Made by a program: the position numbers and the translations under genes. A DNA stretch of 64,000 nt from Roseimaritima ulvae (GTDB lineage: Bacteria > Planctomycetota > Planctomycetia > Pirellulales > Pirellulaceae), in NCBI RefSeq assembly GCF_008065135.1, contig NZ_CP042914.1:744001-808000 (forward strand). Reading direction: 5' to 3'. This document shows positions 49,787 through 64,000 of the stretch, piece by piece. Each line of letters starts with the position of its first letter. Position 1 is the first letter of the stretch. The notes under the pieces were generated by a model. It was not told the DNA's origin and did not search any database. It saw nothing but the letters and a program-made list of their open reading frames with translations.

Positions 49787-50928
49787 TGGTTCGCTTGCTC
49801 CTGTTTCTCGGCGGCGACTGCCGCGGCGGCCTGCTCCAACTGTTCGATACGCAGTTCGAACGCGGCTTCTTGTTCCTGAGCGGCTTTTGCCTGCTGCGCG
49901 CGCTTGATCGCATCCGCTGCTGCGGCGGCTTCCAACTGAGCTTTGATGGCATCGCCGCCTTTGGCGACCGCCTTGGCGGTGGCTTCCGCTTCGGCTGCCG
50001 CTCGGGCTTCGGCCTCGGCTTTTAACTCCTCGGCGTTTTCCCAAAGCGGTTCATCAAAAAAGTTGCGCGACTGGTTGAAGTAGGTATAGGAATGCGATTT
50101 GTTGGCCAATTTCCAAACCGCCTTTTGGCTGTCGGTCAACAGCGGCAGGACCAGTTCTTCGGGGACCGCGGGCACGGTAAACACCTGACCGCTGTTAAAG
50201 CGAATTGAGACGGCGTGTTGCCACTTGCTTTCGAAGGTCGCTTGCAGCTCGTCGTATTGCTGTTGTGACAATCGCAGTTGGCTGTCTAGTTGGGAGAGGA
50301 TGTCGTCGATCAAGGCGGTCTTTTCCGCCTGATCGCGATACTCCCATTCGCGCTTGAGTTTTGCCAATTGCTGTTCGTTGAGATGTTTGTCGGTACAGTC
50401 GCGAGCGGCCTGACGAATCGTGGCCTGCATGTCACCGCGTTGGCCATTGCCCTGTTGTTGTACGAAAGCTCCGTTGACCTGCAGCACGACTCGTCCGTTG
50501 AGGATGTTGTTGTGTTGCCCGGCCAAATCCATCAACTTGTTTTCCGCGTCGGCGGCGATCGCTTTTCGCTGTGCGTCGGTCAGTTTGGTGGCCCGGCGAA
50601 TGAAGGCCAGTTCAAGGTTCATGGCCGGTCGCAGGCGTTCGACCATTACCCGTTTGCGTTGGTCAGCGGCTTTAGCGGCTTTGTTCCTGTCGCCGCGGAG
50701 TGCTTCCGTGACCGCTTCGAATTTCGCCTCATCCGCCACGACCCGAATCTTCTCTTGAGCCCCCGCCGGGACGGCCAGGCACAGCATCACCAAGAGCAAC
50801 AAGGTCGTGTTTCGCTCCGCGAAACCAACGCAAAATTTGGGCGTTCGCGCTACTTTCGCGGAGCGAAAGACTATTGTTTTTCGCGCTACTTTCGCGGAGC
50901 GAAAGGCGACCATGGGGAAACGGGTCAT
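49783..50928 (-). CDS. Exported coiled-coil protein of unknown function with repeat-encoded N-terminus
   Basis: 381 residues. Residues 7-40 read AFRSAKVARKTIVFRSAKVA and then GFAERN, translated from TCC-loop palindromes. The hydrophobic signal segment LLLLVMLCLAVPAGAQ follows. The mature part has LTDAQRKAIAADAENKLMDL and an LTDSQKAVWKLA motif similar to its downstream neighbour. It ends in a long Ala/Glu/Lys-rich coiled coil (about 285-381, ELKAEAEARAAAEAEATAKA). The start ATG overlaps the stop of the large gene upstream. It may be a distant paralogue of the 48920-49786 product. Confidence 0.7.
   Translation of the reverse strand: MTRFPMVAFRSAKVARKTIVFRSAKVARTPKFCVGFAERNTTLLLLVMLCLAVPAGAQEKIRVVADEAKFEAVTEALRGDRNKAAKAADQRKRVMVERLRPAMNLELAFIRRATKLTDAQRKAIAADAENKLMDLAGQHNNILNGRVVLQVNGAFVQQQGNGQRGDMQATIRQAARDCTDKHLNEQQLAKLKREWEYRDQAEKTALIDDILSQLDSQLRLSQQQYDELQATFESKWQHAVSIRFNSGQVFTVPAVPEELVLPLLTDSQKAVWKLANKSHSYTYFNQSRNFFDEPLWENAEELKAEAEARAAAEAEATAKAVAKGGDAIKAQLEAAAAADAIKRAQQAKAAQEQEAAFELRIEQLEQAAAAVAAEKQEQANQ
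50803..50911. repeat. TCC-loop palindromes, two and a half copies, inside a coding N-terminus
   Basis: GGTCGTGTTTCGCTCCGCGAAAC is followed by two direct copies of CGCGCTACTTTCGCGGAGCGAAAG or a close variant. Each folds as CTTTCGC/GCGAAAG around GGA. It occupies codons ~6-42 of the gene at 49783-50928. Confidence 0.88.
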
Positions 50929-53900
50929 TGGACTTGCTCCAGTTGGTTGAAGTAGCGATCCAAGCCGGCGCGGAATTCTTCCGGTAGCGCGGGGCCGCTT
51001 TCCCCGGTAGCTTGGGACACGCCGTGGTCTTCACGGACTTCGTTTTTATTGATCCCGGTCCCCATCAGTACGATGGCCGTATCGGTGGTTGTGCCCCCGC
51101 CGCCGCCGCCGGGCGTCGAACCGCCACCACCGCCTCCCCCCTTGGGGTTGATGCGTTCACTTTGCAACAATCGCTCGATGACTTCGGTTTCCGCTGCGAT
51201 GGCCGCCATCCCGGTGTCGCCGTCGCGGAGGATGTCGGTGGCATCGTTCATCACCGGTACGACGCCGTCGAGCAGTTTTAGGTCTTTGGCAAACCGCTGG
51301 GCTCCTTCGGGCAAAGCTTCGATGGCTTCGATGACTTCGATGATTCGTCCGGCCAGTTGATTCTGTTCGCTGGCCAGACGTTTGGCCTCGCCCTCGTGTT
51401 TTTCCGCGTCAACTACTTCGCGGGCTTGCTGGGCCACGCGGGTTTCCTCACGCAGATTCATTTCGGCTTCCAGCACTTGCAAGACTTCCAGCACCAAGGA
51501 AGGAGGCAAACTACCGGGCGATTTGCCGCCTGGGCAACTGCCGCTGCTGGCCGGATCGACCAGGTCTTCGGCCCAGCGGTCCATGGCATCGGACCAGTAA
51601 TCACACTGAGCAACCGAAGTGGCTTGTTCGGCCACCAGGTCGGTGCCCAATTGCCGCAGGCTGCCGATCACGTCCTGTTCTTTCATATCGTCGAGGATCA
51701 TTTTGAACTGCGTCAACCGACGGCGTTCAAAGTAGGCTTGCATGTCATCCATGATCAAGGAAACGGTGCGAGCACTCTGGTGTTCCTGCTCCTGCAGCTC
51801 CGTCAGCTTGGCGGCGGTTTCGGTTTCATCCGGGACCTCTTCGCGTCCGAAGGTGTCGGTCAGGTCATCGGTCAGATGGCCGCCGATCAGGTACTGATGA
51901 CGCGAGGCGGCTTTAAGGCGTTTGACCAAGGTGCTGCCTTCCAGGTTGCCCAGGATCTGATTCAACTCGTCGGCAATCTTTTCGAATTCGGCTAATAGGT
52001 CGCTTTGTTCCTCGACGGCCTGGTCGACATTCTCATTGGCCGGCGGCGGAGGTTCTGCCGGTTCGCCACCGGGGCCGATGAGGGTGGTTTTGACCAAGCC
52101 CAACGATGGCTGAGAGGGTTTTTTCTTGCCGGGTTCGGATTCGCTTTCGGCCGGTTCGTTGGCGGGTTGTTGATTGGATTCGATATCCGCGATGCTGGGC
52201 GCGGGAGGTGTTTTCGGCGTGTCTTCTTCTTCCGACTCGCTGCCCTGCCCCGAGCCGGTGGCCTGCACCTTGCCGACCGCGGGGCCGCTGGGTTTGGGAG
52301 TACTGGAGACCGTTTTGGGTTGGTTGGCGGCTTCTTTTAACAGTTCCGCCACGGTGGGCATGCGGTTGCCGGAGATGTCTTTCAAGACCTGCAGCATTTC
52401 GGCCCAGCGGTCGAGATGCCCAACACCGATTTCCGGATTGCGAGCGGCCTGCCGCACCAGTTGTTCACCAGCCGCGGTCAGCTTTTCCAAGCGTCGACCG
52501 TTGGCGCGTTCGGCTTCCGCTTGACGGGCCAGTTGGCGACGCGTCTCGGGGTTATCCAGTTGGTCGGCGTCCAGTTCGCGAAATTCTTTGTTGGTTTCAA
52601 ACAGTTGCCGTTCGCGGTCGCGGACTTCCAACGCTTTGCGGTGCCACTTGTTCAACTGCTCCGCCATCCAGATGGCGTGTTGATCGGGCGTCAGCACGTA
52701 CACGGTGTAGGCCGCGGAGTAAACCGGTGGTCGGTCGGGTAGATAGTCTTCCGCCCAGATCCTCAGCTGCAGGGGCTGGGCGGGGATGCCCAAGGACTTG
52801 GCCGAAAAGGTGCCTTGGACTTCCATGCTGGAAGCATCCGGACTGCCGCCCGCCAAGGCTCGACTGCCTTCGGTGGGGGTTTCCACATAAGCGGCATCGA
52901 GGCTCGACCAGTGGATGCCCACGCGGCGGACACCAAAGTCGTCGCTGGCTTTGATTTTAAAGTTCAACAATTCCGAGTCCAGGATCACGCTGGTCCGCTG
53001 TAGGTCTTCACAGATCACCGTCGGCGGTTCGTCATCATGGGCCTCGATCGAAAGTGCAAAGGGTTCTCGACCGGCCAGTCCAAATTCGTCCTGCCAGTCC
53101 AGTTTTAGATTCACCAAAGCATCCACCCGGGCCGGTGAGGCGGCAAACCGTTCGCCCTCAGTGGCAACTGGTTGTTCGTTGACGCGGGCTTCCGTCAGTG
53201 GGCGACTGGCTGCGGCCGACACGGTGGCACGGCTGCCTTTGACCAGCGAGACGCTGCCGCTGCGGAGATCTTTTTCCAGGGGTTCGGGCAGTTGCAGATA
53301 GTCGGGCAACGAAACCTCGGCCATCAGCGAACGCAGTTCGGGTCGCAGTTTGGGTTGCACGTCGATGCGATGCACCGCGTCGCCGACCCGTACTTCCAGC
53401 TGGCTGTCTTCGATCAATGGCGGCAAGGTAAAGGAATAGCTTTCCTTCACCATTTCGACGTCGAGTGGTCGTTGCGAGCCGATTGTGACGCTGGCCGTAT
53501 CGGGGTGCCACTGCGTGCTGGGAGCCAACTGGACCTGCAAGTCGAAGGGTTCGCCATGAGCCACGACCATTTGTTCGGGAAGCGGTTCCAGGTGCGTGAA
53601 GGTGTAACGCGGCGTCGGTTTCCAGGGGGCCAGAAAGCGAGCCCAGGCATTGGAGGTTGCCGCGGGGAACAGCACCAACAGGACCACAGCCCCGCCGGCG
53701 GCAACCAGTGCGGCGGTCGCCCAGCTGCGGTATCGCGAGGGCGGCGTGGCGGCGCGAAAATCTCGCTTGTTGGATTCTTCGGCAACTTGTTTGACGGCCG
53801 CGGCGCACAGCGCCAGCGAACGGTGCTGCTCGGCTTCGTTTTTCGTTAACTCGATGACCCCCAACAGTTGGTCACCCAACTGCGGCATCTTGTGGCTCAG

Positions 53901-54185
53901 CAACCGCGCCAATTGTTCGGTGCGGCGATGTCGCCAGACCCAGCGATGCAGGAACCAGGGCACCATGCCACAGCCCACCACGGCGCCCAGAAAAGCCAAG
54001 ACGCGAATCGCTGCCGGGGTGTCGAAGAAGCGATCCAGCAGAAAGACAAACAGGAAGCCCAGCAGAACGCCCACGATGGCCATCGCCACCGCTTCGATCA
54101 TTTTGATCTTCCAAACCACCTGTTTGTATCGATCCAGCTGGTTCTCCAATGACTTAGGAACCGTCAGTTTTGGTTGATCGCTCAT
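50925..54185 (-). CDS. Large DUF4175-like membrane protein of the MoxR/vWA operon
   Basis: 1086 residues. Two membrane helices lie near the N-terminus (about 31-52 and 60-85) and one at about 160-180. A long periplasmic part follows, with beta-rich Ig-like stretches to about residue 510 (EPLPEQMVVAHGEPFDLQVQ, SLMAEVSLPDYLQLPE). Then come helical segments, a Ser/Glu/Pro-rich linker (about 640-720), more helices and a poly-Gly tract (GGGGGGGSTPGGGGGG) near the end. The architecture and place in the operon match the large DUF4175-type proteins found next to MoxR and Bat-like proteins. Function is unknown. Confidence 0.7.
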   Translation of the reverse strand: MSDQPKLTVPKSLENQLDRYKQVVWKIKMIEAVAMAIVGVLLGFLFVFLLDRFFDTPAAIRVLAFLGAVVGCGMVPWFLHRWVWRHRRTEQLARLLSHKMPQLGDQLLGVIELTKNEAEQHRSLALCAAAVKQVAEESNKRDFRAATPPSRYRSWATAALVAAGGAVVLLVLFPAATSNAWARFLAPWKPTPRYTFTHLEPLPEQMVVAHGEPFDLQVQLAPSTQWHPDTASVTIGSQRPLDVEMVKESYSFTLPPLIEDSQLEVRVGDAVHRIDVQPKLRPELRSLMAEVSLPDYLQLPEPLEKDLRSGSVSLVKGSRATVSAAASRPLTEARVNEQPVATEGERFAASPARVDALVNLKLDWQDEFGLAGREPFALSIEAHDDEPPTVICEDLQRTSVILDSELLNFKIKASDDFGVRRVGIHWSSLDAAYVETPTEGSRALAGGSPDASSMEVQGTFSAKSLGIPAQPLQLRIWAEDYLPDRPPVYSAAYTVYVLTPDQHAIWMAEQLNKWHRKALEVRDRERQLFETNKEFRELDADQLDNPETRRQLARQAEAERANGRRLEKLTAAGEQLVRQAARNPEIGVGHLDRWAEMLQVLKDISGNRMPTVAELLKEAANQPKTVSSTPKPSGPAVGKVQATGSGQGSESEEEDTPKTPPAPSIADIESNQQPANEPAESESEPGKKKPSQPSLGLVKTTLIGPGGEPAEPPPPANENVDQAVEEQSDLLAEFEKIADELNQILGNLEGSTLVKRLKAASRHQYLIGGHLTDDLTDTFGREEVPDETETAAKLTELQEQEHQSARTVSLIMDDMQAYFERRRLTQFKMILDDMKEQDVIGSLRQLGTDLVAEQATSVAQCDYWSDAMDRWAEDLVDPASSGSCPGGKSPGSLPPSLVLEVLQVLEAEMNLREETRVAQQAREVVDAEKHEGEAKRLASEQNQLAGRIIEVIEAIEALPEGAQRFAKDLKLLDGVVPVMNDATDILRDGDTGMAAIAAETEVIERLLQSERINPKGGGGGGGSTPGGGGGGTTTDTAIVLMGTGINKNEVREDHGVSQATGESGPALPEEFRAGLDRYFNQLEQVQ

Positions 54186-54204
54186 TCGGTCTGTCCTTTA
54201 TTGA

Positions 54205-56397
54205 TTAAATCAATCCGACTGCTTTCCGCCCGATCCAAAACACGCCCAGCAGAAAAATCATTCCACCGGCCACCAATGGATGGCTCCACAACTGCACCCG
54301 TCGCACGGCCGGAGGCGGATCCGGTAGCGTTCGCAAGGCGTTTTTGATGGAGTCCAAATGGTTCATTTGAATGACCTGACCACGGGTCACCCGGGCGATC
54401 TCTTCCAGCACTTCCGGCCGCGCCGGTTTGCCCACGCGTTCCAACGCCGCCCCTTGTACAAACAGCGAAGTCTCCAGTGTGGCACCTGTCTGCTGGCAGG
54501 CAAGTGTGACCGCATGTTTACCGGCTTCCTGGGGGGAAAATCGACCCGCAAAGGCGCCCCATTGGTCGCCTTGGGACGCTAGCTGCACGGTTTGTCCGCG
54601 TCCGGAAGGTCCCACGATCCGCGCCGTGACGTCGCCGTCGGAGAGCGGTTCGCCGCTGTTTTCCATGACGTTGGCCGTGAGCGTGACCGTCTGACGGACC
54701 TGCGGTTGTTCGGGCGAATAATACAGCCGCATGGTTTCGCCTTTAGCCATGTTGCGCTGATAGGCCATCCAGCGAACGACTTGTCCCCAGAACCGGTAGT
54801 GGTACAGGTCCTCCACGCCTTTGCGCCATCGCCAGGCACCGTCGGTACCCATGAACAACACCTTGCCCGCGCCATAGGTGCGGGTAGCCAACAGCGGCAG
54901 GCGGCCGTATTCGTTGGAGATGTCTTTGTGGACGGCCAACACTTCACTGCCCGCCCGCGCCCGAGTCACCGGGGCGTACCACTGAAAGCCCGGCAGCCCT
55001 TCCCAGACTTCCACGTTGTCGTCGCGGGTATCGGCCAATTTGGTCAGCAGGCTCCGCCGTCCAAGTTCCGTCAATTCAAAATGGCTGGGCGTTCGCGAAC
55101 CCCAACCGTCCGGTTGCAAGGCATCCATCACCACCGGGTACAGTTCCGACAACTTGGTTTCCAGCAAAGAGAACTGGCGGCCCTGCCAACCGGGGATGAA
55201 CACCAGTCCGCTGGCCTGGTGTTCGACCAAGCCTTTGAGTTGTTCGCATTGCAGGTCGGTCAGCTGGTCATCTTCGATCCCCACGTCGCCCAGAAAGACC
55301 ACGTCGTACTGCGACAGTTCATCACGGCCGGCGGGAAAGTCTTTGATGTAATCGGCGTTGCCACCGCCGGTCTTTTCCAGTTTGGGATGGAATAGCAGGC
55401 AGGAAACTTCGATGCCCGGGTCACGCGACAGAGCATTTCGCAGATAACGATATTCCCATCGCGGATAGGATTCGATCACCAACACGCGGAGCTTTTCTTC
55501 GCGGATCGAAATCGGCGCGGTCATTTGGTTGTTTTCGGCCAGTGTCTCGCTGCTGTGTTTGGGGATTTCCAGGGTCAGCGTGAAATCGCCGGTCGAACTG
55601 GGTTTCCAGATAATCGCGTCGCTGGTGCGTCCCATGGCCAGGATGCGGATGTCTTTGCTGATCGTCTCGCCGTCGGACGAACGCAGTACGATGGTGGTTT
55701 GGTAGTCGCGTGGCAGCGCGCTTTCGATGGTCAGCGGGATCCGCACCGCTTTGCCGCCGACGCCCACGGTGGGAACGTCAAAGCTGAGCAGTTCGACGTC
55801 GGGCAGTTGGCTGTCGCGGCCCGCCGGAACAGCAAACACCGGAACGCCTTTGGAACGCAGGCGAGCGGCCGCGTCGACCGGCGGCGCGCCGATGTTCCAG
55901 TCGCCGTCGGAAGCCAGCACCACGCCCAGCAAGCTGGATTGTTCGTCGATTACATCGCTGAGTGGTTTGGCCAGGTCCGAGCCTTCTTCGCTATCGCTGC
56001 CGGCAAAGGGCTGGATGACCACATTCATGCGTTCTTCCAGCGACTGCCAGGTTTCCGGTTCGGTCAGCGCTGCAATTGCTTGTTTACGCGGAACCGGAGG
56101 GCCCGATTCGCCGATCTGGCCGTCGACCGTGTCCATGCTGGCCGAGGCGTCATATAGCACGGCCACGGTGGGTTTTTCTTGGGGGCGATACTGCTGGACC
56201 CATTCCGGTTGATTCAACAGCAGCAGAGCCAGAACGATCAGCGTCAATCGCAGCAGTTCCAAAGCGCCGATGGCGCGGCGGTATCCACTGCGTCGCCAAG
56301 CCGTGAAACAAAACGCGGCCGCGGCGCTGACCAGCACGACCGACAAAAGCAGCGTCCACAGCGACCATTCGAAGGTCAGAGCTTGGGTGGAATTCAT
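54205..56397 (-). CDS. Membrane protein with vWA-like and glutamine-amidotransferase-like domains
   Basis: 730 residues. It is anchored by two N-terminal helices and one C-terminal helix (LVAGGMIFLLGVFWIG). Residues about 75-200 form a vWA-like domain with VAVLYDASASMDTVDG as the metal site. An Ig-like domain follows. Then a class I glutamine-amidotransferase-like region (VLVIESYPRWEYRYLRNALS, YDVVFLGDVGIEDDQL, GLVFIPGWQG) appears without an evident catalytic Cys. The ATG at 56397 overlaps the stop of the BatA-like gene. These proteins accompany MoxR-DUF58-BatA and are thought to act in envelope stress or chaperone-like roles. Confidence 0.8.
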   Translation of the reverse strand: MNSTQALTFEWSLWTLLLSVVLVSAAAAFCFTAWRRSGYRRAIGALELLRLTLIVLALLLLNQPEWVQQYRPQEKPTVAVLYDASASMDTVDGQIGESGPPVPRKQAIAALTEPETWQSLEERMNVVIQPFAGSDSEEGSDLAKPLSDVIDEQSSLLGVVLASDGDWNIGAPPVDAAARLRSKGVPVFAVPAGRDSQLPDVELLSFDVPTVGVGGKAVRIPLTIESALPRDYQTTIVLRSSDGETISKDIRILAMGRTSDAIIWKPSSTGDFTLTLEIPKHSSETLAENNQMTAPISIREEKLRVLVIESYPRWEYRYLRNALSRDPGIEVSCLLFHPKLEKTGGGNADYIKDFPAGRDELSQYDVVFLGDVGIEDDQLTDLQCEQLKGLVEHQASGLVFIPGWQGRQFSLLETKLSELYPVVMDALQPDGWGSRTPSHFELTELGRRSLLTKLADTRDDNVEVWEGLPGFQWYAPVTRARAGSEVLAVHKDISNEYGRLPLLATRTYGAGKVLFMGTDGAWRWRKGVEDLYHYRFWGQVVRWMAYQRNMAKGETMRLYYSPEQPQVRQTVTLTANVMENSGEPLSDGDVTARIVGPSGRGQTVQLASQGDQWGAFAGRFSPQEAGKHAVTLACQQTGATLETSLFVQGAALERVGKPARPEVLEEIARVTRGQVIQMNHLDSIKNALRTLPDPPPAVRRVQLWSHPLVAGGMIFLLGVFWIGRKAVGLI

Positions 56398-58472
56398 GAT
56401 TCGGTGACGCTCCGCCGACGAGGCAAACACAGGGCGGCTTCGACGATCATGGCGACGACCATCAGCACCAAAAATAAACGCCAGATCTCTTGAACTAGCG
56501 AGTGGAGGTTGCCGGCGGTGTCATCCACGCGAGAAAAATCCAAACCGCCAAACAGGGTTTGCAGCTTGGCATCGCTGACCATTGCCGTGGCATCTTCGGC
56601 GACCGATCGATTGACCGCCACCAATTGTTCATCCGTGCGGTAGACGCCCTGATGAATGCCGTACTCCGAGGAGATGGCGTCGTCGGTGGTCGACACCGCA
56701 CGCCAGTTTTCCGCCTGCACGGTGCCGGCAATCAGCGTCCGCGTATCGCTCAGCGCCGCGGCGCCCTTGCGGACCGCTCGTTGAATCGCCACGTACAACA
56801 CCACGCCGTCTCGGGCCAGCGATGAATCCAAAGGGCTGGGCGTGGTGGTGCAGAAATAAACACCCAACGGGCCGGAATCGCCATCGTCGCTGGTGTCGTT
56901 GTCATCATTTGCCGCAGCGTTGTCCGCCGCGCCATCGCTTGCCGCGTCATGATCTGCCGAGGCGGTGGGTTGGTTGGCGTTGGGGGGCGCGGCGCGGACC
57001 AGCAGGGGCCGGTCACCATCCAGCGAGGCCAGCGGAATAAAGGGGCCTTCGATTCCCGCGTAGTTGCTAATTCGCAGTTGGCCGACCGGCAGCGCGGAAC
57101 CGCTGAGCGTATTGGCCAGCAGGTCTTGATCGCCACGCCACTGGGCCACCGCGACGGCCTGTTCAGCTTGATTCCAGGGCCGCCAGCGGATCCCAAACAT
57201 TTGGGCGTCGGAAGGATTGCGGGGCGGGAAGAATATCACCTGTCCGCCAGCTTTGACGAACGATTCAACTTGCGGGCGTTCTTCATCGGAGGGCAATTCA
57301 CCCTGCCATAGCAGCAGCGAGACTTCTTCCCAGGCCACGGTCCCCAGTTGGCTGCGTGGGACCTGTTCGGCGCGATGGGGCACGTTTGGATCGGAAGCGA
57401 TTTCAGCGGCCAGCTGCAGCGGTCGCGCGGCCTGAGGTTCGTCGGCGACCAGGATGGTTTTTCGTGGCGGAGGATCGTCAAACACAAAATAGGCGTCGTT
57501 GTCGGCGGGGTTGGCATCGGCGGGAATCGATACCCGCCCCCAGCCGCGTTGTAGTTTGTCGTCGATGGGGATCGGATGGTCTTTTAATTCCGCGTTGCCG
57601 CCCGACAGCGAAACGCTCCACTCCGACCGGGCGCCGTCGATTTCAAACTGCAGCGGAATTTTTCGAGCTTCCACCGTTTCACTGCCTCCGCGGATCCGCA
57701 ACGAGACCAATAGATTGGTTTGATCACCGCGGGTTTGACGCCGCACGTCGGTGACGCGAAGCGAAAGGTTGTCGGGGGCTGGATCCCCGTAAGCCAATAG
57801 ATTGATCTTGGTGGTTTGCGGCAACTCTTTGAAGGCGTCGCGAATCGCGGCCCAGCGACCGCTATCGGAATTCCAGTCGCTTTCTCGCAGGTCCGACACG
57901 ATCCAGATATCGGCCCGCCCCACGCGGTTGGCTTTGACGTAGTCGTAGGCTTCCTGCAGCATTCCGGCCAGATCGGCCGTGTTGTCGGCGGCCGCCGTGT
58001 CGGGAGCTTCGGCCAGATCGTCGATCGATTCAAGTTCACGAACCTGCCCGTCGCCGCTGTCGATCAAGACCAGCCGGGCCGATTGCAAGGTTGAAAGTGC
58101 GGCCACCAGTTGTTGTCGAGCGGTGTCCAGTTTGGAGCTGGCCGTGCCGTCGCCGATCTGTTGCATGCTGGGCGAACGATCCAGCAGCACCAACGTCGTG
58201 TCGGCGGCGCCACCGGCGGTGGCGCCCAACCAACCGCTGGCCAGCGGACGGCTGATCACAAACAACAGTCCCGCGATCGCCAACATCCGAAAGGCCAGGA
58301 TCAGCCACTGCCGCAGTCGAGCGTAGCCGCGGGACATGCGGTTGGCGGCCAGCAGAAACATCATCGCCGCCCAGGGCATCGTCTGGTAACGACGTTGATT
58401 GATCAGGTGAATGATCACCGGCAAGGCCACGATCGGCATCGCCAGCAGCATCCAGGGTTGCAGAAAACTCAT
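56394..58472 (-). CDS. BatA/vWA-domain membrane protein
   Basis: 692 residues. The BatA N-terminal signature PWMLLAMPIVALPVIIHLIN opens the protein. A second membrane helix follows (LAIAGLLFVISRPLASGWLG), then a vWA domain with TLVLLDRSPSMQQIGDG as the metal-binding DxSxS and WIVSDLRESDWNS. The rest is periplasmic with an acidic low-complexity insert (ASDGAADNAAANDDNDTSDD). A final helix lies near residue 665. The start overlaps the DUF58 gene by ATGA. It probably works with MoxR and DUF58 as a membrane complex. Confidence 0.85.
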   Translation of the reverse strand: MSFLQPWMLLAMPIVALPVIIHLINQRRYQTMPWAAMMFLLAANRMSRGYARLRQWLILAFRMLAIAGLLFVISRPLASGWLGATAGGAADTTLVLLDRSPSMQQIGDGTASSKLDTARQQLVAALSTLQSARLVLIDSGDGQVRELESIDDLAEAPDTAAADNTADLAGMLQEAYDYVKANRVGRADIWIVSDLRESDWNSDSGRWAAIRDAFKELPQTTKINLLAYGDPAPDNLSLRVTDVRRQTRGDQTNLLVSLRIRGGSETVEARKIPLQFEIDGARSEWSVSLSGGNAELKDHPIPIDDKLQRGWGRVSIPADANPADNDAYFVFDDPPPRKTILVADEPQAARPLQLAAEIASDPNVPHRAEQVPRSQLGTVAWEEVSLLLWQGELPSDEERPQVESFVKAGGQVIFFPPRNPSDAQMFGIRWRPWNQAEQAVAVAQWRGDQDLLANTLSGSALPVGQLRISNYAGIEGPFIPLASLDGDRPLLVRAAPPNANQPTASADHDAASDGAADNAAANDDNDTSDDGDSGPLGVYFCTTTPSPLDSSLARDGVVLYVAIQRAVRKGAAALSDTRTLIAGTVQAENWRAVSTTDDAISSEYGIHQGVYRTDEQLVAVNRSVAEDATAMVSDAKLQTLFGGLDFSRVDDTAGNLHSLVQEIWRLFLVLMVVAMIVEAALCLPRRRSVTES

Positions 58473-59380
58473 CGCACTCCTCGGCCGCGAGTCCGCCCCA
58501 CCAAAAACCGCATCAAGGACTGTTCGTAGGGTTCGTCGATGCGCACGCGGTGGTAGTCCACACCGGTTTCTAAAACGACTTTTTGCATCTGAGTCAGGTA
58601 GTCATGCAGGGCTGACTGGTAGCGGTCGGCGATGGTGTTGGGTTCGGCAAAGATCGCCGCGCCGCCTTCCATGTCCAAAAATCGCGTGGGTCGCTGGAAG
58701 GTGAAATCCAATTCGGCCGGGTCGAGCAACTGAAACGCCGCCAAGTCGTGTTTGCGGAATCGCAAGTGTTCGAAGCAGCCGCGGAGTTCTTCCGGGGGCA
58801 GGAAGAAGTCCGAGATGACCACGATCAAGGCTCGCTGTCGAACCGTTTCGGCCAGTTCATGCAGGACCGGGATCAACTGGGTGGGACCGTCCGGTTGGGC
58901 CTGTTCCAGGGTGTCGAACACCAGGGACAGGTGGGCCGCGTTGCGTTTGGGCGGAATGCTTTTGACGATCCCGTCGGCCACGCAGGACAGTCCCACGGCG
59001 TCACCCTGCTGCACGGCCAGGTAGCCCAAGGCGGCGGCCAGCCGCCGTGCGTATTGGATTTTGGTGCTTCCGTCGCTGCCGAAATCCATCGAGCCGCTGG
59101 TATCGAGGACGACACAGCAGCGGAGGTTGGTGTCGGCTTCGAATTCTTTGATGTAGAACCGATCGCTGCGCCCGTAGGCTCGCCAGTCCAGCCGTCGCAG
59201 GTCATCGCCGGGGACGTACTTGCGATACTCGGCAAATTCCACGCTGGCGCCGCGGTGCGGGCTGGCGTGCTTGCCCGACACGTTGCCTTGCATGGCGCGG
59301 CGGGCAAACAACGGCATTCCCGCCAAGCGTGCCAGCACTTTGGTGTCGAGAAACTCTCGCGGTTGTCGATCGGCAAACAT
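58469..59380 (-). CDS. DUF58 (vWA-like) protein
   Basis: 303 residues, soluble. The DUF58 core GASVEFAEYRKYVPGDDLRR followed by LDWRAYGRSDRFYIKEFEAD is diagnostic. It then reads into a vWA-like fold with VVLDTSGSMDFG and ALIVVISDFFLP. It is regularly encoded next to MoxR ATPases and is thought to be their partner. The ATG at 59380 shares a base with the moxR stop (TAATG). A longer open frame exists but overlaps moxR. Confidence 0.92.
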   Translation of the reverse strand: MFADRQPREFLDTKVLARLAGMPLFARRAMQGNVSGKHASPHRGASVEFAEYRKYVPGDDLRRLDWRAYGRSDRFYIKEFEADTNLRCCVVLDTSGSMDFGSDGSTKIQYARRLAAALGYLAVQQGDAVGLSCVADGIVKSIPPKRNAAHLSLVFDTLEQAQPDGPTQLIPVLHELAETVRQRALIVVISDFFLPPEELRGCFEHLRFRKHDLAAFQLLDPAELDFTFQRPTRFLDMEGGAAIFAEPNTIADRYQSALHDYLTQMQKVVLETGVDYHRVRIDEPYEQSLMRFLVGRTRGRGVR

Positions 59381-60426
59381 TAGGACTCGTTCGATTCCTC
59401 GACCAACCGACGGATGATATCTTTGGCTGCAATGCCTTCGGCTTGGGCGGCAAAGGTCGTGATTACGCGATGGGTCAGCACCGCCGTGGCGACTTCTTGA
59501 ACGTCCTCCAAGCGGACCATATAGCTGCCCATCAAAGCGGCTCGCGATTTGGCCCCCAGGATCAGGTTCTGCACCGCTCGCGGACCCGCACCCCAGGAGA
59601 CCAGCGGCGGCAACCAATCCGGTGCGGTTTCACCTTGTGGACGTGTTTTGCGAACCAATTGGGCGGCATAGGTGTAGATGTGATCCGGTACGGGAACGCG
59701 ACGAACGAGGGCTTGATGTTCGATGATTTGTTCACCGGTCAACAGATGTTTCAGTTCTGGCAACTCGCCGCCGGTGGTGGTCTTGGCGATCTGGATCTCT
59801 TCGGCTTCGTTGGGGTAGTCCAGTTCGATCAGCGACATGAAGCGGTCCAGTTGAGCTTCGGGCAGCGGATAGGTGCCCTCTTGTTCAACGGGGTTTTGGG
59901 TGGCCAGGACCATAAACGGCGAGGGCAAATGAAAGGTCTTGCCGACCACCGTGACGCGTTGTTCCTGCATCGCTTCCAGCATCGCAGCTTGCGTTTTAGG
60001 GGGGGCACGGTTGATCTCGTCGGCCAACACGATGTTGGCGAACACGGGGCCTTTGACGAAGTGGAACTCGCGGCGGCCTTCGGCGTTGTCTTGCAGGATG
60101 TCCGTGCCGGTGATGTCCATGGGCATCAGGTCGGGCGTGAACTGGATGCGGCTGAACTGCAGTGACATGGTTTCGGCCAGTTTGCTGACCAGCAGCGTTT
60201 TAGCCAGCCCCGGAACCCCCATCAGCAGTGCGTGGCGGCGGGCAAATAAACAAATCGCCAGTTGGTCGATGACGGACTGTTGCCCGACGATCACGCGTCC
60301 CAGTTCCGCCTTGAGCTTGGTATGAGCTTCACGTAGGAAATCGATGGCCTGGACATCGTTATCGCTCAGTTGAGCTTCACCACCGGGAGTGGCCCCACCG
60401 GATGGTGCTGTGGTCGCTTCAGACAT
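59380..60426 (-). CDS. MoxR-family AAA+ ATPase
   Basis: 348 residues. Walker A is LMGVPGLAKTLLVSKLAE, Walker B is IVLADEINRAPPKTQ, and sensor 1 is MVLATQNPVEQEGTYPLPEA. The C-terminal lid domain contains the family's VRRVPVPDHIYTYAAQLV and SWGAGPRAVQNLILGAKSRA. MoxR ATPases act as chaperones for cofactor insertion or complex assembly together with vWA proteins. It is the first gene of a nine-gene operon, and the 286-bp upstream gap (60427-60712) should contain its promoter. Confidence 0.94.
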   Translation of the reverse strand: MSEATTAPSGGATPGGEAQLSDNDVQAIDFLREAHTKLKAELGRVIVGQQSVIDQLAICLFARRHALLMGVPGLAKTLLVSKLAETMSLQFSRIQFTPDLMPMDITGTDILQDNAEGRREFHFVKGPVFANIVLADEINRAPPKTQAAMLEAMQEQRVTVVGKTFHLPSPFMVLATQNPVEQEGTYPLPEAQLDRFMSLIELDYPNEAEEIQIAKTTTGGELPELKHLLTGEQIIEHQALVRRVPVPDHIYTYAAQLVRKTRPQGETAPDWLPPLVSWGAGPRAVQNLILGAKSRAALMGSYMVRLEDVQEVATAVLTHRVITTFAAQAEGIAAKDIIRRLVEESNES

Positions 60427-60712: not shown

Positions 60713-61819
60713 CTACCGACCGATGAAAACGCCATTATTTTGCTTTGCCAAATCCTGTAGGAATTTGCCGTAAATTTCGTCAAGGTAATCGCCCATTGCA
60801 ATCGTATTGATGGTTACCCGTTTGTCTGGATTGGCTTGTTGGCAGTACTCCAGGATCCATTGGGCTGCCTCGGTGGCGCGTTCCTCTTCGTCGTTGCGAA
60901 TCGACTTGTTTTCTCGGTCATTCGGGGCCCCGTCGCTGAACAGGACAATGGTGTCTATCCCGTTCAGGGCAAATGCCTTGGCTAGCGCGGCTCGCGTATT
61001 GGTCGTGTACTGCGGCGTCAGATTGTCGATGAACTGCACGGCTTCGGTGCGGTTAGCTTGGGTGGCAGAGACTAATTTTCCTTCCCACCCAGGGACTTCT
61101 CGCGGCATGTGGTTGAATTCGATAACGGTGAACGTTTCGAAGTTCAGGGACGTCACCCAAGCCGCCAGCAAGCTTTTATATTCGGCGTAGCGGACGTTGG
61201 CCCGTTGGCGTGATTCAGCGGACAGATCATTTCCAATTCTTGACAGGCTTTCGGAAGTATCAAAAAGGAATGCGACGTTCTTCATTTCACCTTTCAGACC
61301 AATGACGCCGCTCATTTGGGCACGCAACGCAGCAAAGCCGGTTCGCATCCGCATCAGGTTTTCGGTAGCCCGCTGCAGGTCTTGTTTGCTATCTGTCAGA
61401 GCTTGGTTGGCTTCGGCAATACCACGTTTGGCATCGGCCAGCTGCGCAGATAGTGCGTTTTGTTGAGCTTTACTCGCGACTTCGGCGGCTTTCATCGCGT
61501 CGTTTGCGCCTCGTCGTTCTGCTTCCATCTCGGCGATTTTACGCGCCATGTCACTTTTTATATTGGCCAGTTCCCGATTGGCCGAGTCAAGATTATTGGC
61601 CAGTTGTTTCTGTTCGGCAGTCAGTCCCGCTATCAGTTTTTTTCCGCTCTCCAGGTCTGCTTCCAAGGCTTCTTTGGTTTGGATAAAGGTGCCCGCTTGT
61701 TGTTGTTGATGATTGACCGCATACAGCAATAGCAGGAGCACACCGCCGAGTGCGCAGAACGCAACATCTAGAAATGATAGGCCAAACGAACTGTTCGCTT
61801 CCCGGGTACGTCTCAGCAT
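60713..61819 (-). CDS. Membrane-anchored vWA protein with periplasmic coiled coil (2)
   Basis: 368 residues. The single N-terminal membrane segment is FGLSFLDVAFCALGGVLLLL, with an Asp just inside the helix. A long coiled coil follows (about 40-165, including EALEADLESGKKLIAGLTAE). The vWA domain has NVAFLFDTSESLSRIG, conserving D-x-S-x-S, a Thr in NTRAALAKAF, and DTIVLFSDGAPND. It is encoded 18 bp after the other vWA gene and ends the FHA/ExbB/vWA cluster. The Asp in an FLDV context recalls the stator-plug subunits ExbD and TolR, which also have one N-terminal helix. Confidence 0.8.
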   Translation of the reverse strand: MLRRTREANSSFGLSFLDVAFCALGGVLLLLLYAVNHQQQQAGTFIQTKEALEADLESGKKLIAGLTAEQKQLANNLDSANRELANIKSDMARKIAEMEAERRGANDAMKAAEVASKAQQNALSAQLADAKRGIAEANQALTDSKQDLQRATENLMRMRTGFAALRAQMSGVIGLKGEMKNVAFLFDTSESLSRIGNDLSAESRQRANVRYAEYKSLLAAWVTSLNFETFTVIEFNHMPREVPGWEGKLVSATQANRTEAVQFIDNLTPQYTTNTRAALAKAFALNGIDTIVLFSDGAPNDRENKSIRNDEEERATEAAQWILEYCQQANPDKRVTINTIAMGDYLDEIYGKFLQDLAKQNNGVFIGR

Positions 61820-61837
61820 GATGCCATCTAGGGTTGA

Positions 61838-62599
61838 CTATAGACTGGTGTTGGCTCCACCACCGATCGCCGCCAGGTTTGACAGAAAGCTACTGTCGAC
61901 CTTCTCGCCGATCGCAACGGTGTTTAAAATGATCGAATCTCCTTGAGCGGCCACAAAATCAACTAATTCCTGTTTGTATCGATCCGAAGCTGCGGGATCG
62001 TCATCAGCCAAGGGGATGCCGGCAGCATTCACGCTGGGGTCTCCGTCGGTGAATAAGATGATGGTGTCAACACCGGGTAAACCGTAGGCCGCTTGCAGGG
62101 CTTTATAGGTGTTGGTCATGTTTTCGGCGCGGAGCGTGCGGACATGTGCACAGGCGCGTTCGACGTTGCGATCGGAGTGTTCGAGCATGCGGTTCGGTTG
62201 CCAGACGTGAGCCTCATGGTTGAAGCTGACCACGTTAAAATCTTCGGACGGCAACTCTGTGATTTTTAGGCAGAACTGATTGAGGTAGTGCTCCGGGATG
62301 GCGTTAGAATCCTCCGACTCTGCCATGCTTCCGGAAACGTCGATGACGTAAACGACGTGCTTCAAGTTGCCTCCCAGGCCCGTTAAAGCTTTCTGAAGTT
62401 GAGCTAACCGCTGGACGTTTTCTTGCGCGGCATCTCGTTCCGTTTCCGCTTGCTGCTGTTTGTGTTGTGCTTCTTGAACGATCTGCTGGCTTCGTTCTTC
62501 CATTGCCAAGAGCAGCAACAGGGTCCCCCCCAACGCGCAGGAAATGACGTCCAGGAATGACACGCTGAAGACTTGAACGTCGCGGCCTCGTATTCGCAT
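61838..62599 (-). CDS. Membrane-anchored vWA protein (1)
   Basis: 253 residues. The N-terminal helix is FSVSFLDVISCALGGTLLLL, closely matching its downstream partner. A short coiled coil (SQQIVQEAQHKQQQAETERD) comes next. The complete vWA domain has VVYVIDVSGSMAESED (metal-site DxSxS), the Thr in AENMTNTYKAL, and DTIILFTDGDPSV. It lies three bases after the ExbB-like gene. The vWA faces the periplasm if the helix is oriented as in ExbD. Confidence 0.82.
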   Translation of the reverse strand: MRIRGRDVQVFSVSFLDVISCALGGTLLLLLAMEERSQQIVQEAQHKQQQAETERDAAQENVQRLAQLQKALTGLGGNLKHVVYVIDVSGSMAESEDSNAIPEHYLNQFCLKITELPSEDFNVVSFNHEAHVWQPNRMLEHSDRNVERACAHVRTLRAENMTNTYKALQAAYGLPGVDTIILFTDGDPSVNAAGIPLADDDPAASDRYKQELVDFVAAQGDSIILNTVAIGEKVDSSFLSNLAAIGGGANTSL

Positions 62600-62602
62600 C
62601 CG

Positions 62603-63415
62603 TTACTCCTTCTTGATGTGCATGCGGTGAACGAATCTTTTCATACATGCTTCCAGCACGCGGACCAGCAAAGAGTCTTCGTCTGCTTGGACCCGATGGA
62701 CGAAATACATCAGGATCAAACTCAATACCAAGGCTACGAATGTGGTGTCGAAGGCGGTACTTAGGTGACCCGCCGCAGCGGAGATTAGCGACTCTCCTTC
62801 CGCGTCCTGGCCAAACACACCCATAGCTTCGCCAATGCCCATCACGGTGCCCACAAAACCGATCGAGGGAATGGCCCAGGCCAAGTATCGAATGGTTGCG
62901 TACTGCGATTCCGTTTCTGCCTGAATGATTTCCGCATGGGACTCGAGCGCTGCGCTAACGTCCTCAGCCGACCAATTCGCTCGGGCTCGCTGCAAGGCGG
63001 TTCCTAATAGGAGGTTGATCATCGACGGATCCGTCTGGTTGGGTTGGTTCATGGCTTGACGCAACTGCAACGCATCTTCTGGCAGCAACAGGGTTTGGTC
63101 ATCGGGGCTCAACATGGATTCATCAATTTTTTGGGACTGCACGTTCACAAACCGCCACCGCGCGGCCAGCGATGCCAGGGCGGCCCCAAATGCCATTAGC
63201 GTGAACAGGTTGATCCAGTGTTGCATCGATCGCAGCATGATCGGAACACTAGCGGGACTTGAGACGTTTTCGGGGCCCACCACCCATTGAACGCCCACGA
63301 ATTGAAATAGCAAGATATGCCCAATCACAAGCCAGAAGATTCCCCCGAGAGCAGCTCCGATCAACAACGGTCCCAGAGATGCGGGCTTAGGCGAAACGGA
63401 TGATGAGTTAGCCAT
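62603..63415 (-). CDS. MotA/TolQ/ExbB-family proton channel protein
   Basis: 270 residues. Helix 1 is at about 16-38 (LLIGAALGGIFWLVIGHILL), helix 2 at about 70-88, and two C-terminal helices lie at 175-200 and 220-245. The channel signature IPSIGFVGTVMGIGEAMGVF and the following HLSTAFDTTFVALVLSLILM match the TolQ/ExbB domain, including the conserved Thr residues of the proton path. A cytoplasmic loop of about 85 residues lies between helices 2 and 3. No ExbD/TolR gene is present. The two vWA proteins downstream take that position. Confidence 0.85.
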   Translation of the reverse strand: MANSSSVSPKPASLGPLLIGAALGGIFWLVIGHILLFQFVGVQWVVGPENVSSPASVPIMLRSMQHWINLFTLMAFGAALASLAARWRFVNVQSQKIDESMLSPDDQTLLLPEDALQLRQAMNQPNQTDPSMINLLLGTALQRARANWSAEDVSAALESHAEIIQAETESQYATIRYLAWAIPSIGFVGTVMGIGEAMGVFGQDAEGESLISAAAGHLSTAFDTTFVALVLSLILMYFVHRVQADEDSLLVRVLEACMKRFVHRMHIKKE

Positions 63416-63472
63416 GTATCTGCTACAGTCGCAAAGAAGTTTGAGTAAGAAAGAAAAGCGGTTGTGGACGCT

Positions 63473-63510
63473 CTACTGGGAAGCAAAACGACTACTGGGA
63501 AGCAAAACGA
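63473..63510. repeat. 19-bp perfect tandem duplication at a stop codon
   Basis: The bases at 63473-63491 are repeated exactly at 63492-63510 (CTACTGGGAAGCAAAACGA). The duplication includes the last codons and the TAG of the FHA gene, so the stop region is copied just downstream. It looks like a recent slippage event. Confidence 0.9.
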
Positions 63511-64000
63511 AACGTGGGCCCCGACTCGCCCAGTTGAAACTGGTCGCCGTTTTGAATGCGATGAATGGAGATGCGTTCGCCGTTGACGAACGTTCCGTTG
63601 GTGCTGTTGAGGTCTTTGAGGAAGTACTCACTCTTGCGTTTCAACAACACGCAATGTTCAAATGACAGTTCTGGGTACTTGTCGGATGGAAAGGACCATT
63701 CGGCTTTGGGGCTGCGGCCAATTAGCAATTGCGCCCCAACGACACGTTTCTCATTCGTTTCGACAATCGTAATTGCGGCGGGGGTCGGAACCCGTCCGGC
63801 TGCTAGGGAAACGGGAAGGTCTCGCAACACGGGAATCACATCCATCGATTCCGAGACTTCCAATAGAGCCGTCCAATACGCGCCGGTTTCCGTGTCGATG
63901 GCCTCGTACAAATCGGCGTTGTCCAGGCAGTTCGATTCGGTGGTGGCGGCACATAATCTCGCCGTGCCCGCCGCAACGGAGTCAAGAGAACAGTGGATGG
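63492..64000 (-). CDS. FHA-domain protein, 5' partial
   Basis: The frame is open to the window edge (169 codons visible). The C-terminal ~90 residues are a forkhead-associated domain, a phosphothreonine-binding module: LLIGRSPKAEW, LSFEHCVLLKRKSEYFLKDL and NSTNGTFVNGERI carry the expected Gly-Arg, His and Asn residues. FHA normally has Ser-x-x-His at the second site, and here it is SFEHC. The N-terminal part (YEAIDTETGAYWTALLEVSE) is unassigned and may belong to another domain. It is the first visible gene of the FHA/ExbB/vWA cluster, suggesting control by Ser/Thr phosphorylation. Confidence 0.82.
   Translation of the reverse strand, partial: IHCSLDSVAAGTARLCAATTESNCLDNADLYEAIDTETGAYWTALLEVSESMDVIPVLRDLPVSLAAGRVPTPAAITIVETNEKRVVGAQLLIGRSPKAEWSFPSDKYPELSFEHCVLLKRKSEYFLKDLNSTNGTFVNGERISIHRIQNGDQFQLGESGPTFRFASQ

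Follow-up and report, generated by a model that had tools for sequence, protein, structure and literature searches.

A TolQ-like channel with two membrane-anchored vWA proteins at the end of a kinase, GTPase and FHA operon in Roseimaritima ulvae: a candidate ion-driven motor of a GTPase-centric signalling system

An operon of the planctomycete Roseimaritima ulvae ends in genes for a TolQ/ExbB/MotA-like channel and two membrane-anchored vWA proteins, vWA-a and vWA-b. Its 3' part lies at one end of the 64,000-nucleotide stretch analysed here (NZ_CP042914.1, positions 744,001 to 808,000; the window), and its upstream genes lie beyond the window edge, in the stretch L024. We consider it somewhat more probable than an even chance that the product of this locus is a trans-envelope motor, driven by protons (or ions), within a GTPase-centric, conflict-type signalling system. 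The observations presented for this reading are gene content, recurrent gene sets, conserved residues and co-occurrence across phyla. The features in the window are as follows.

60713..61819, minus strand: vWA-b, 368 amino acids; short N-terminus, one transmembrane helix, long coiled coil, and a vWA domain with the metal-site residues DTSES, TNT and SDG.
61724..61780, minus strand: predicted pore helix of vWA-b, residues 14-32, with Asp18 of the FLDV motif (from hydropathy and conservation).
61838..62599, minus strand: vWA-a, 253 amino acids; short N-terminus, one transmembrane helix, coiled coil, and a vWA domain with DVSGS, TNT and TDG.
62501..62557, minus strand: predicted pore helix of vWA-a, residues 15-33, with Asp17 of the FLDV motif (from hydropathy and conservation).
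62603..63415, minus strand: TolQ/ExbB/MotA-like channel subunit, 270 amino acids (PF01618, E 6.3e-13), with Thr190 and Thr225 aligning with TolQ Thr145 and Thr178.
63492..64000, minus strand: C-terminal part, with the FHA domain, of an Hsp70-like-FHA protein whose gene runs on past the window to 64946 (L024:4493-5947, 484 amino acids).

The motor core is probable. An earlier note, made from the DNA letters, had recognised the channel, and it is confirmed as a MotA_ExbB family member (49 bits against a curated Pfam cut-off of 22.9). The common start that the note had read in the two vWA proteins is likewise present, as F-x-x-SFLDV-x-x-CALGG-x-LLLLL in both, and hydropathy predicts a single, N-terminal transmembrane helix for each, with Arg residues before it; this basic N-terminus would place the vWA heads in the periplasm. 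The shared SFLDV motif is not a matter of chance, because the vWA-a and vWA-b genes are homologous. vWA-a matches Pfam VWA_3 (E 1.1e-10), and vWA-b has no Pfam vWA match at E ≤ 0.01, yet its vWA part aligns with that of vWA-a (E 4.3e-15) and has DxSxS, TNT and SDG; metal-site residues are retained in both proteins. FLDV in both helices reproduces the hydrophobic-hydrophobic-Asp-Val context of the ExbD/TolR N-terminal helix. Neither vWA protein matches the ExbD/TolR family PF02472 in Pfam. On the single 8.2-Mb contig of the genome there are 10 MotA_ExbB places and eight ExbD (PF02472) places, the nearest ExbD (935277-935654) lying ~128 kb from the channel match (806672-807013); no ExbD stands near the channel, either in the window or just outside it.

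The combination of a channel with helix-bearing partners is recurrent among bacteria. A contig scan of 84,980 species with both vWA proteins gave 154 relatives; the 80 best of these were retained and 18 further planctomycete stretches were added; with three loci of the own genome besides these 98, 101 loci were scanned, all chosen by vWA or helix similarity and not by channel. The helix was found in 89 loci, by a model whose training set included some of the loci counted, and the 12 without a helix match are excluded from the following counts. A same-strand channel lies within 5.5 kb in 78 of the 89 (two helices in 69, one in nine), and in nine of the 11 loci without a channel the first helix begins ~1.5 kb or less from the contig start. 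The predicted genomic co-occurrence of TolQ-like and FLDV-vWA genes holds to this extent. ExbD was matched in none of the 77 fetched helix-plus-channel loci by a hidden Markov model built on eight own-genome ExbDs, whose reach is unproved. Neighbours of the channel-vWA set in Proteobacteria and Verrucomicrobia are often Hsp70-like/FHA, kinase or PEGA-FGE genes. Across the 77 loci our own models, trained partly on the loci that they count, found Hsp70-like genes in 42, Ser/Thr kinase genes in 22 and PEGA/FGE-type genes in 54, with contig ends limiting the upstream view. Pfam assigned FHA to 17 of 34 Hsp70-like proteins scanned, and FGE (20), PEGA (19) and Pkinase (6) among 79 upstream proteins of the 168 listed.

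Residues expected of an ion-coupled pore are conserved on both sides of the putative interface. Conservation was read from alignments of 37 of the 53 listed channels plus the window's (A5), 25 of 145 vWA-type matches plus the window's two (A6), 33 of 39 Hsp70-like matches plus the window's (A3) and 79 of 168 upstream proteins (A4). Thr190 and Thr225 are invariant in the 38 channel sequences and fall on Thr145 and Thr178 of the solved TolQ, in a weak alignment (E 0.022); the window channel alone gave no match as a PDB query. In the 27 partner proteins F15, D17, C21 and G24 (vWA-a numbering) are invariant. Of 166 helix matches, found with a helix model trained on Asp-bearing helices and favouring Asp, 165 have the Asp, and DxSxS occurs in 153 of 165 sequences by a loose string match. 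Ion coupling is known to require these threonines of TolQ and the Asp of ExbD/TolR, as PMC12204202 also states. The proposal that an Asp-bearing helix pair takes the place of ExbD/TolR thus gains support from comparison, through the 78 of 89 co-occurrence and the invariant threonines. Were the channel and vWA proteins instead to conduct no ions and act as a static scaffold or a signalling receptor, which we judge improbable, neither the near-universal Asp (with the bias of the model just given) nor the invariant Thr190 and Thr225 would be expected; such a scaffold would agree with some own-genome relatives, in L025 and L026, whose first-partner helix lacks the Asp.

In these two loci (L025:4820-9366 and L026:3049-6685) the channel is followed by two different single-helix proteins, the first with a helix of the type FPFLAV... 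or LFPFLSI... and the second keeping its Asp, an apparent one-Asp heterodimer. Two loci, L187 and L188 (genomes G089 and G055), hold vWA proteins whose helix is of a different kind (WISTTDMFLLLW, WISSNDVTLLTM) and whose genes follow long coiled-coil genes; they may represent a further helix-vWA family.

The motor part has already been predicted in print. The note had held that no system of this composition was described, and for the core this does not stand: PMC12204202 (Mol Biol Evol 2025) predicts motors in which a TolQ-like channel works with a heterologous TPH-vWA pair, TolR/ExbD being absent, and its AlphaFold 3 models place the helices inside the pentamer with the Asp near a threonine ring. 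The taxa that it names for this family are mainly Proteobacteria and Verrucomicrobia. The window has the same gene content, namely a TolQ-like gene beside a heterologous pair of membrane-tethered vWA proteins with the helix Asp and no tolR or exbD. Beyond it, the R. ulvae operon adds kinase-DO-GTPase, GAP1-N2, FHA, Hsp70-like and trypsin genes. The words 'kinase' and 'GTPase' do not occur in the main text of PMC12204202, where 'fha' appears as FhaC only, and the consulted text of PMC12905483, which cites it, has no vWA, kinase or GTPase.

The partner pair is old and its order mostly kept, because first- and second-position proteins cluster apart on a tree of 165 partners, where the two positions need 6 and 9 label changes compared with ~55 when shuffled (none of 500 shuffles was as low). 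The window's two proteins group together (97 local support), and a recent duplication is not established, since both branches are long. The closest channel among the matches found (44% identical) is that of L147. The locus (L147:1691-9845, Planctomycetaceae bacterium IP29b_bin.91) is also the closest operon relative found, with the order kinase-FGE fusion, double FHA-like, FHA-transmembrane-protease-like, Hsp70-like-FHA, channel and one SFLDV protein (weak DUF2135, no vWA). Five other planctomycete loci (L173, L174, L177, L181 and L182) have a channel and a single SFLDV/SFIDV-type partner near kinase and/or FHA genes by our own models, possibly homodimer versions.

Control of the motor by the kinase, GTPase and FHA set is likely, in view of the operon structure and the repetition of Hsp70-FHA and kinase genes in other phyla and of GAP1-N2 in the order. 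The operon begins ~8.7 kb outside the window edge and runs from L024 into the window in the order kinase-DO-GTPase fusion, GAP1-N2 plus GAP1-M protein, double-FHA protein, FHA-transmembrane-trypsin protein, Hsp70-like-FHA protein, channel, vWA-a and vWA-b. The last four genes are separated by 76, 3 and 18 bp, and 286 bp lie between vWA-b and the next gene, a MoxR gene. Pfam recognises kinase, GAP1-N2, GAP1-M, FHA and trypsin domains in the operon. The kinase half of the fusion is clear (Pkinase, E 6e-41). With a kinase and three FHA-bearing genes in one operon, the link to Ser/Thr phosphorylation drawn in the earlier note is supported. The FHA protein of the note was recognised correctly as to its domain (residues 408-473, Pfam FHA E 2.8e-17), and its extent has been revised: the gene is cut by the window edge and the whole protein of 484 amino acids is Hsp70-like in its N-terminal part, where the family profile matches DnaK in PDB (E 8.2e-19). 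The double-FHA protein also has a weak Zn ribbon, and the FHA-transmembrane-trypsin protein has His, Asp and Ser in trypsin-like contexts, as read from its sequence.

The GTPase and GAP1 components identify the operon as a GAP1-N2 system. Its GAP1 protein matches both GAP1-N2 (E 6.6e-17) and GAP1-M (E 9.5e-13) and has one transmembrane segment and a repeat-rich outer part; the repeats form a long GDSATAP-type run, followed by a further ~300 residues (L024:8458-11157). The fusion protein falls below the Pfam DO-GTPase2 cut-off (0.0012), and its C-terminal half matches proteins of L252, L260 and L262 that pass it (1.1e-82, 4.7e-83 and 3.5e-90), which identifies the DO-GTPase component of the window operon. 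DO-GTPase2 was matched at E ≤ 0.05 in eight of nine such proteins, and not in L249. Divergent from the operon and 183 bp away are a gene of 178 codons and a GYF membrane protein gene (GYF_2 E 1e-5, just below the cut-off). The 178-residue product matches the N-terminal part of a ~1000-residue protein found at the same place elsewhere (4.6e-19), with no Pfam FN3 in either; we label this position 'FN-position'. PMC7159879 describes GAP1-N2 GTPase-centric systems and planctomycete GYF genes, and the likeness to the R. ulvae operon covers the DO-GTPase with Zn ribbons, GAP1-N2/GAP1-M and the planctomycete GYF protein; for other lineages it reports vWA, Hsp70 and kinase themes. The R. ulvae operon differs in that its DO-GTPase is fused to a kinase and its last genes encode a channel and a helix-vWA pair. 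MotA, ExbB, ExbD and TolQ are absent from the text of PMC7159879 (figures and supplements aside), as are TolQ, MotA and vWA from the consulted text of PMC11237479, the other DO-GTPase paper.

Other GAP1-N2 systems of the order also carry a channel with two single-helix proteins. GAP1-N2 occurs in 71 of 146 genomes of the order, at 91 places, and for six of these the window channel matches a short channel (~290-320 amino acids) on the same contig and strand. Besides the window's, 39 of the 91 places were examined, the six picked for their channel match and 33 others, so the sample is not random. Eighteen of the 39 loci are fuller, with the DO-GTPase, GAP1-N2, ~1000-residue and GYF proteins all matched, and 10 of these 18 have a channel and two different single-helix proteins (of the FAFQDI.TSV.G and LFLDTICNTFGG types): all six that were picked for the channel and four of the other 12. 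The motor lies downstream of the GYF gene in nine loci and before the GTPase gene in one, and GFIGTV and AFxTT are kept in 10 of 10 GAP1-type channels. Single-sequence queries from L249 matched the window locus at the DO-GTPase position (6.4e-98), GAP1-N (4e-38), FN-position (4.6e-19), GYF (8.7e-9) and channel (1.7e-22). The helix model trained on vWA partners ranked seven GAP1-type helix proteins as the first seven of 215 other transmembrane N-termini, after 129 N-termini at ≥15 bits had been set aside as vWA partners, not each checked, and with 20 of 364 unscored. By profile comparison, the two GAP1-type helix types join at 98.7%, and the vWA helix joins them at 93.8 and 74.8%, while all three stay below 1% with ExbD.

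A motor present in 10 of 18 fuller loci, six of them picked, and at varying positions behaves as a variable module would. More generally, though tentatively and with less assurance than for the locus itself, an ion-driven rotary motor may be one exchangeable output among those of DO-GTPase/GAP1-N2 conflict systems, in which a GTPase switch (here also a kinase) would turn on an envelope-working channel with a heterodimeric axle; this would be a second 5:2-type pairing of a motor with an immunity-like system, besides Zorya.

The sequence of events in such a machine can be proposed. By homology, channel subunits would form an inner-membrane pentamer, one vWA-a and one vWA-b helix would sit in its pore as a heterodimer, and Asp17 and Asp18 would carry the ion, as the corresponding residues do in ExbD, TolR and MotB. 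The gene neighbourhood points to the further steps. Ion flow may turn or pull the pair, the coiled coils passing the motion to the periplasmic vWA heads, which may use their metal sites to hold a target. A cytoplasmic switch could be formed by the kinase-DO-GTPase protein together with GAP1-N2; the double-FHA, Hsp70-like-FHA and FHA-transmembrane-trypsin proteins could read the kinase phosphosites and assemble on or gate the motor; and the last of these would supply a periplasmic protease as output.

Several results weigh against a motor steered by this GTPase and kinase set. Eight of the 18 fuller GAP1-N2 loci have no motor, and of these only L256 is cut by a contig end, just after GYF; a channel was found in none of the 21 remaining GAP1-N2 loci. 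None of the 98 vWA-type loci was matched by GAP1 or GTPase seeds, so the motor does not require the GTPase switch, and the kinase was found in just 22 of the 77 loci. The helix pair is present and no channel was found in L129 and L131, both whole over 20 kb, and here the predicted co-occurrence fails. The L147 operon has one partner only, without a vWA domain. Single-sequence searches linked no GAP1-type helix protein to the window vWA proteins in either direction, and the two helix proteins of L249 matched nothing at the window locus. Alignment shows a degenerate first phosphate motif in gammaproteobacterial Hsp70-like proteins, and the window protein has Ser where the second phosphate motif of DnaK has Asp; for these two reasons, ATPase activity of the Hsp70-like proteins is doubtful. 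Compared with ExbD, the vWA helices have an hhalign probability below 1% for both helix and full alignments, and seven ExbDs were weakly enriched in the helix-model ranking (ranks 26-117 of 215, p 0.011). A canonical ExbD origin of the helices was rejected, as homology is undetectable by hhalign and the enrichment is weak. L129 also holds kinase and Hsp70-like genes.

The conflict role is a guess, carried over by analogy from the GAP1-N2 literature, and the defence screens add to the counter-evidence: PADLOC named no specific defence system for the window-side and L024 proteins. On window proteins it gave weak ZorA (channel, 6.6e-5) and coiled-coil matches; among seven L024 proteins, kinase models including PD-T4-6 match the kinase (5.6e-65), and an RT-protease model matches the trypsin-like protein (2.5e-11). 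Membership of a known defence family was rejected, the kinase and RT-protease matches being taken as shared domains and not shared systems. No ZorC, ZorD or ZorE match was found among six window-side and seven L024 proteins, and the operon is not a Zorya system. Zorya ZorAB resembles the proposed window motor as a 5:2 ion-driven motor in a defence system, and differs in its long cytoplasmic channel tail and peptidoglycan-binding ZorB (consulted text of PMC11890865), the window channel having 270 amino acids. The first helix protein of L249 has a weak ZorB match (6.2e-4) among 17 mostly coiled-coil matches.

An envelope role fits nearly as well as the conflict-type reading. The machine might be an Agl-Glt-like or Tol-like force generator for gliding, adhesion or envelope maintenance, steered by phosphorylation and GTPase and without a conflict role, which we regard as rather unlikely, though a serious candidate. 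In Myxococcus xanthus, the AglR channel has two different ExbD/TolR-family partners, AglQ and AglS, and GltG is bitopic, with a cytosolic FHA and a periplasmic part, and contacts AglR in a bacterial two-hybrid assay (text of PMC3169522). The R. ulvae operon has the same plan of one channel, two different single-helix partners and an FHA-transmembrane-periplasmic protein; the FHA part in the window has a weak, below-cut-off NCBIfam match to GltG, and the relatives in other phyla stand beside PEGA/FGE and lipoprotein-like genes. However, AglQ and AglS match Pfam ExbD/TolR and have no vWA heads, whereas the window pair does not match PF02472, and the consulted part of the gene table of PMC3169522 has no DO-GTPase or GAP1. 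The rarity in the family (three of 31 genomes) is also unlike a housekeeping machine. Some of the same neighbours could serve a protein-export or surface-assembly machine, whose motor, FHA, kinase and Hsp70-like parts would act on periplasmic clients matured by trypsin or FGE: an Hsp70-like adaptor, a protease and FGE (sulfatase-modifying-type) domains lie near the motor, and the FHA protein TagH of the type VI secretion system is a below-cut-off NCBIfam match. We consider this a poor candidate, as no secretion ATPase, outer-membrane channel or type VI secretion gene was noticed among the eight operon and two divergent genes.

The wiring of the motor to a GTPase conflict-type system appears new, and no other description of the combination was found in the open-licence literature (figures and supplements aside). 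The favoured conflict-type reading joins two literatures apparently silent on each other, that of TolQ-vWA motors without known function and that of GTPase-centric systems without known output. If correct, it would supply the motors with a regulator and the GTPase systems with an actuator, and it predicts that phosphorylation and GTP control the ion-driven heterodimeric axle. The loci are also a large natural set of presumed 5:1:1 motors, in which one can ask why the two halves of the axle differ.

The operon is sparsely distributed among close relatives. At E ≤ 0.001 the helix profile matches three of 31 family genomes, the window's included, the other two weakly and within long open frames. 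In the order, three of 146 genomes, again counting the window's, have a vWA-a match at E ≤ 1e-10. The helix profile has no match in the congener G458, whose lack of the operon is as expected of an accessory system; the genes flanking the operon lie far apart there (1995547 and 6800360). Foreign origin by base composition was considered and is suggestive at most, with G+C of 0.52-0.61 across the operon and ~0.60 around it. The downstream genes at 50925-60426 of the window belong to a distinct operon of the aerotolerance type, made up of MoxR, DUF58, BatA-type and two large-protein genes. MoxR-DUF58-BatA was rejected as part of the system, since in G458 this operon, with a MoxR 89% identical, has unrelated neighbours. 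The order of the first four genes of the MoxR operon is conserved in G458 and G455.

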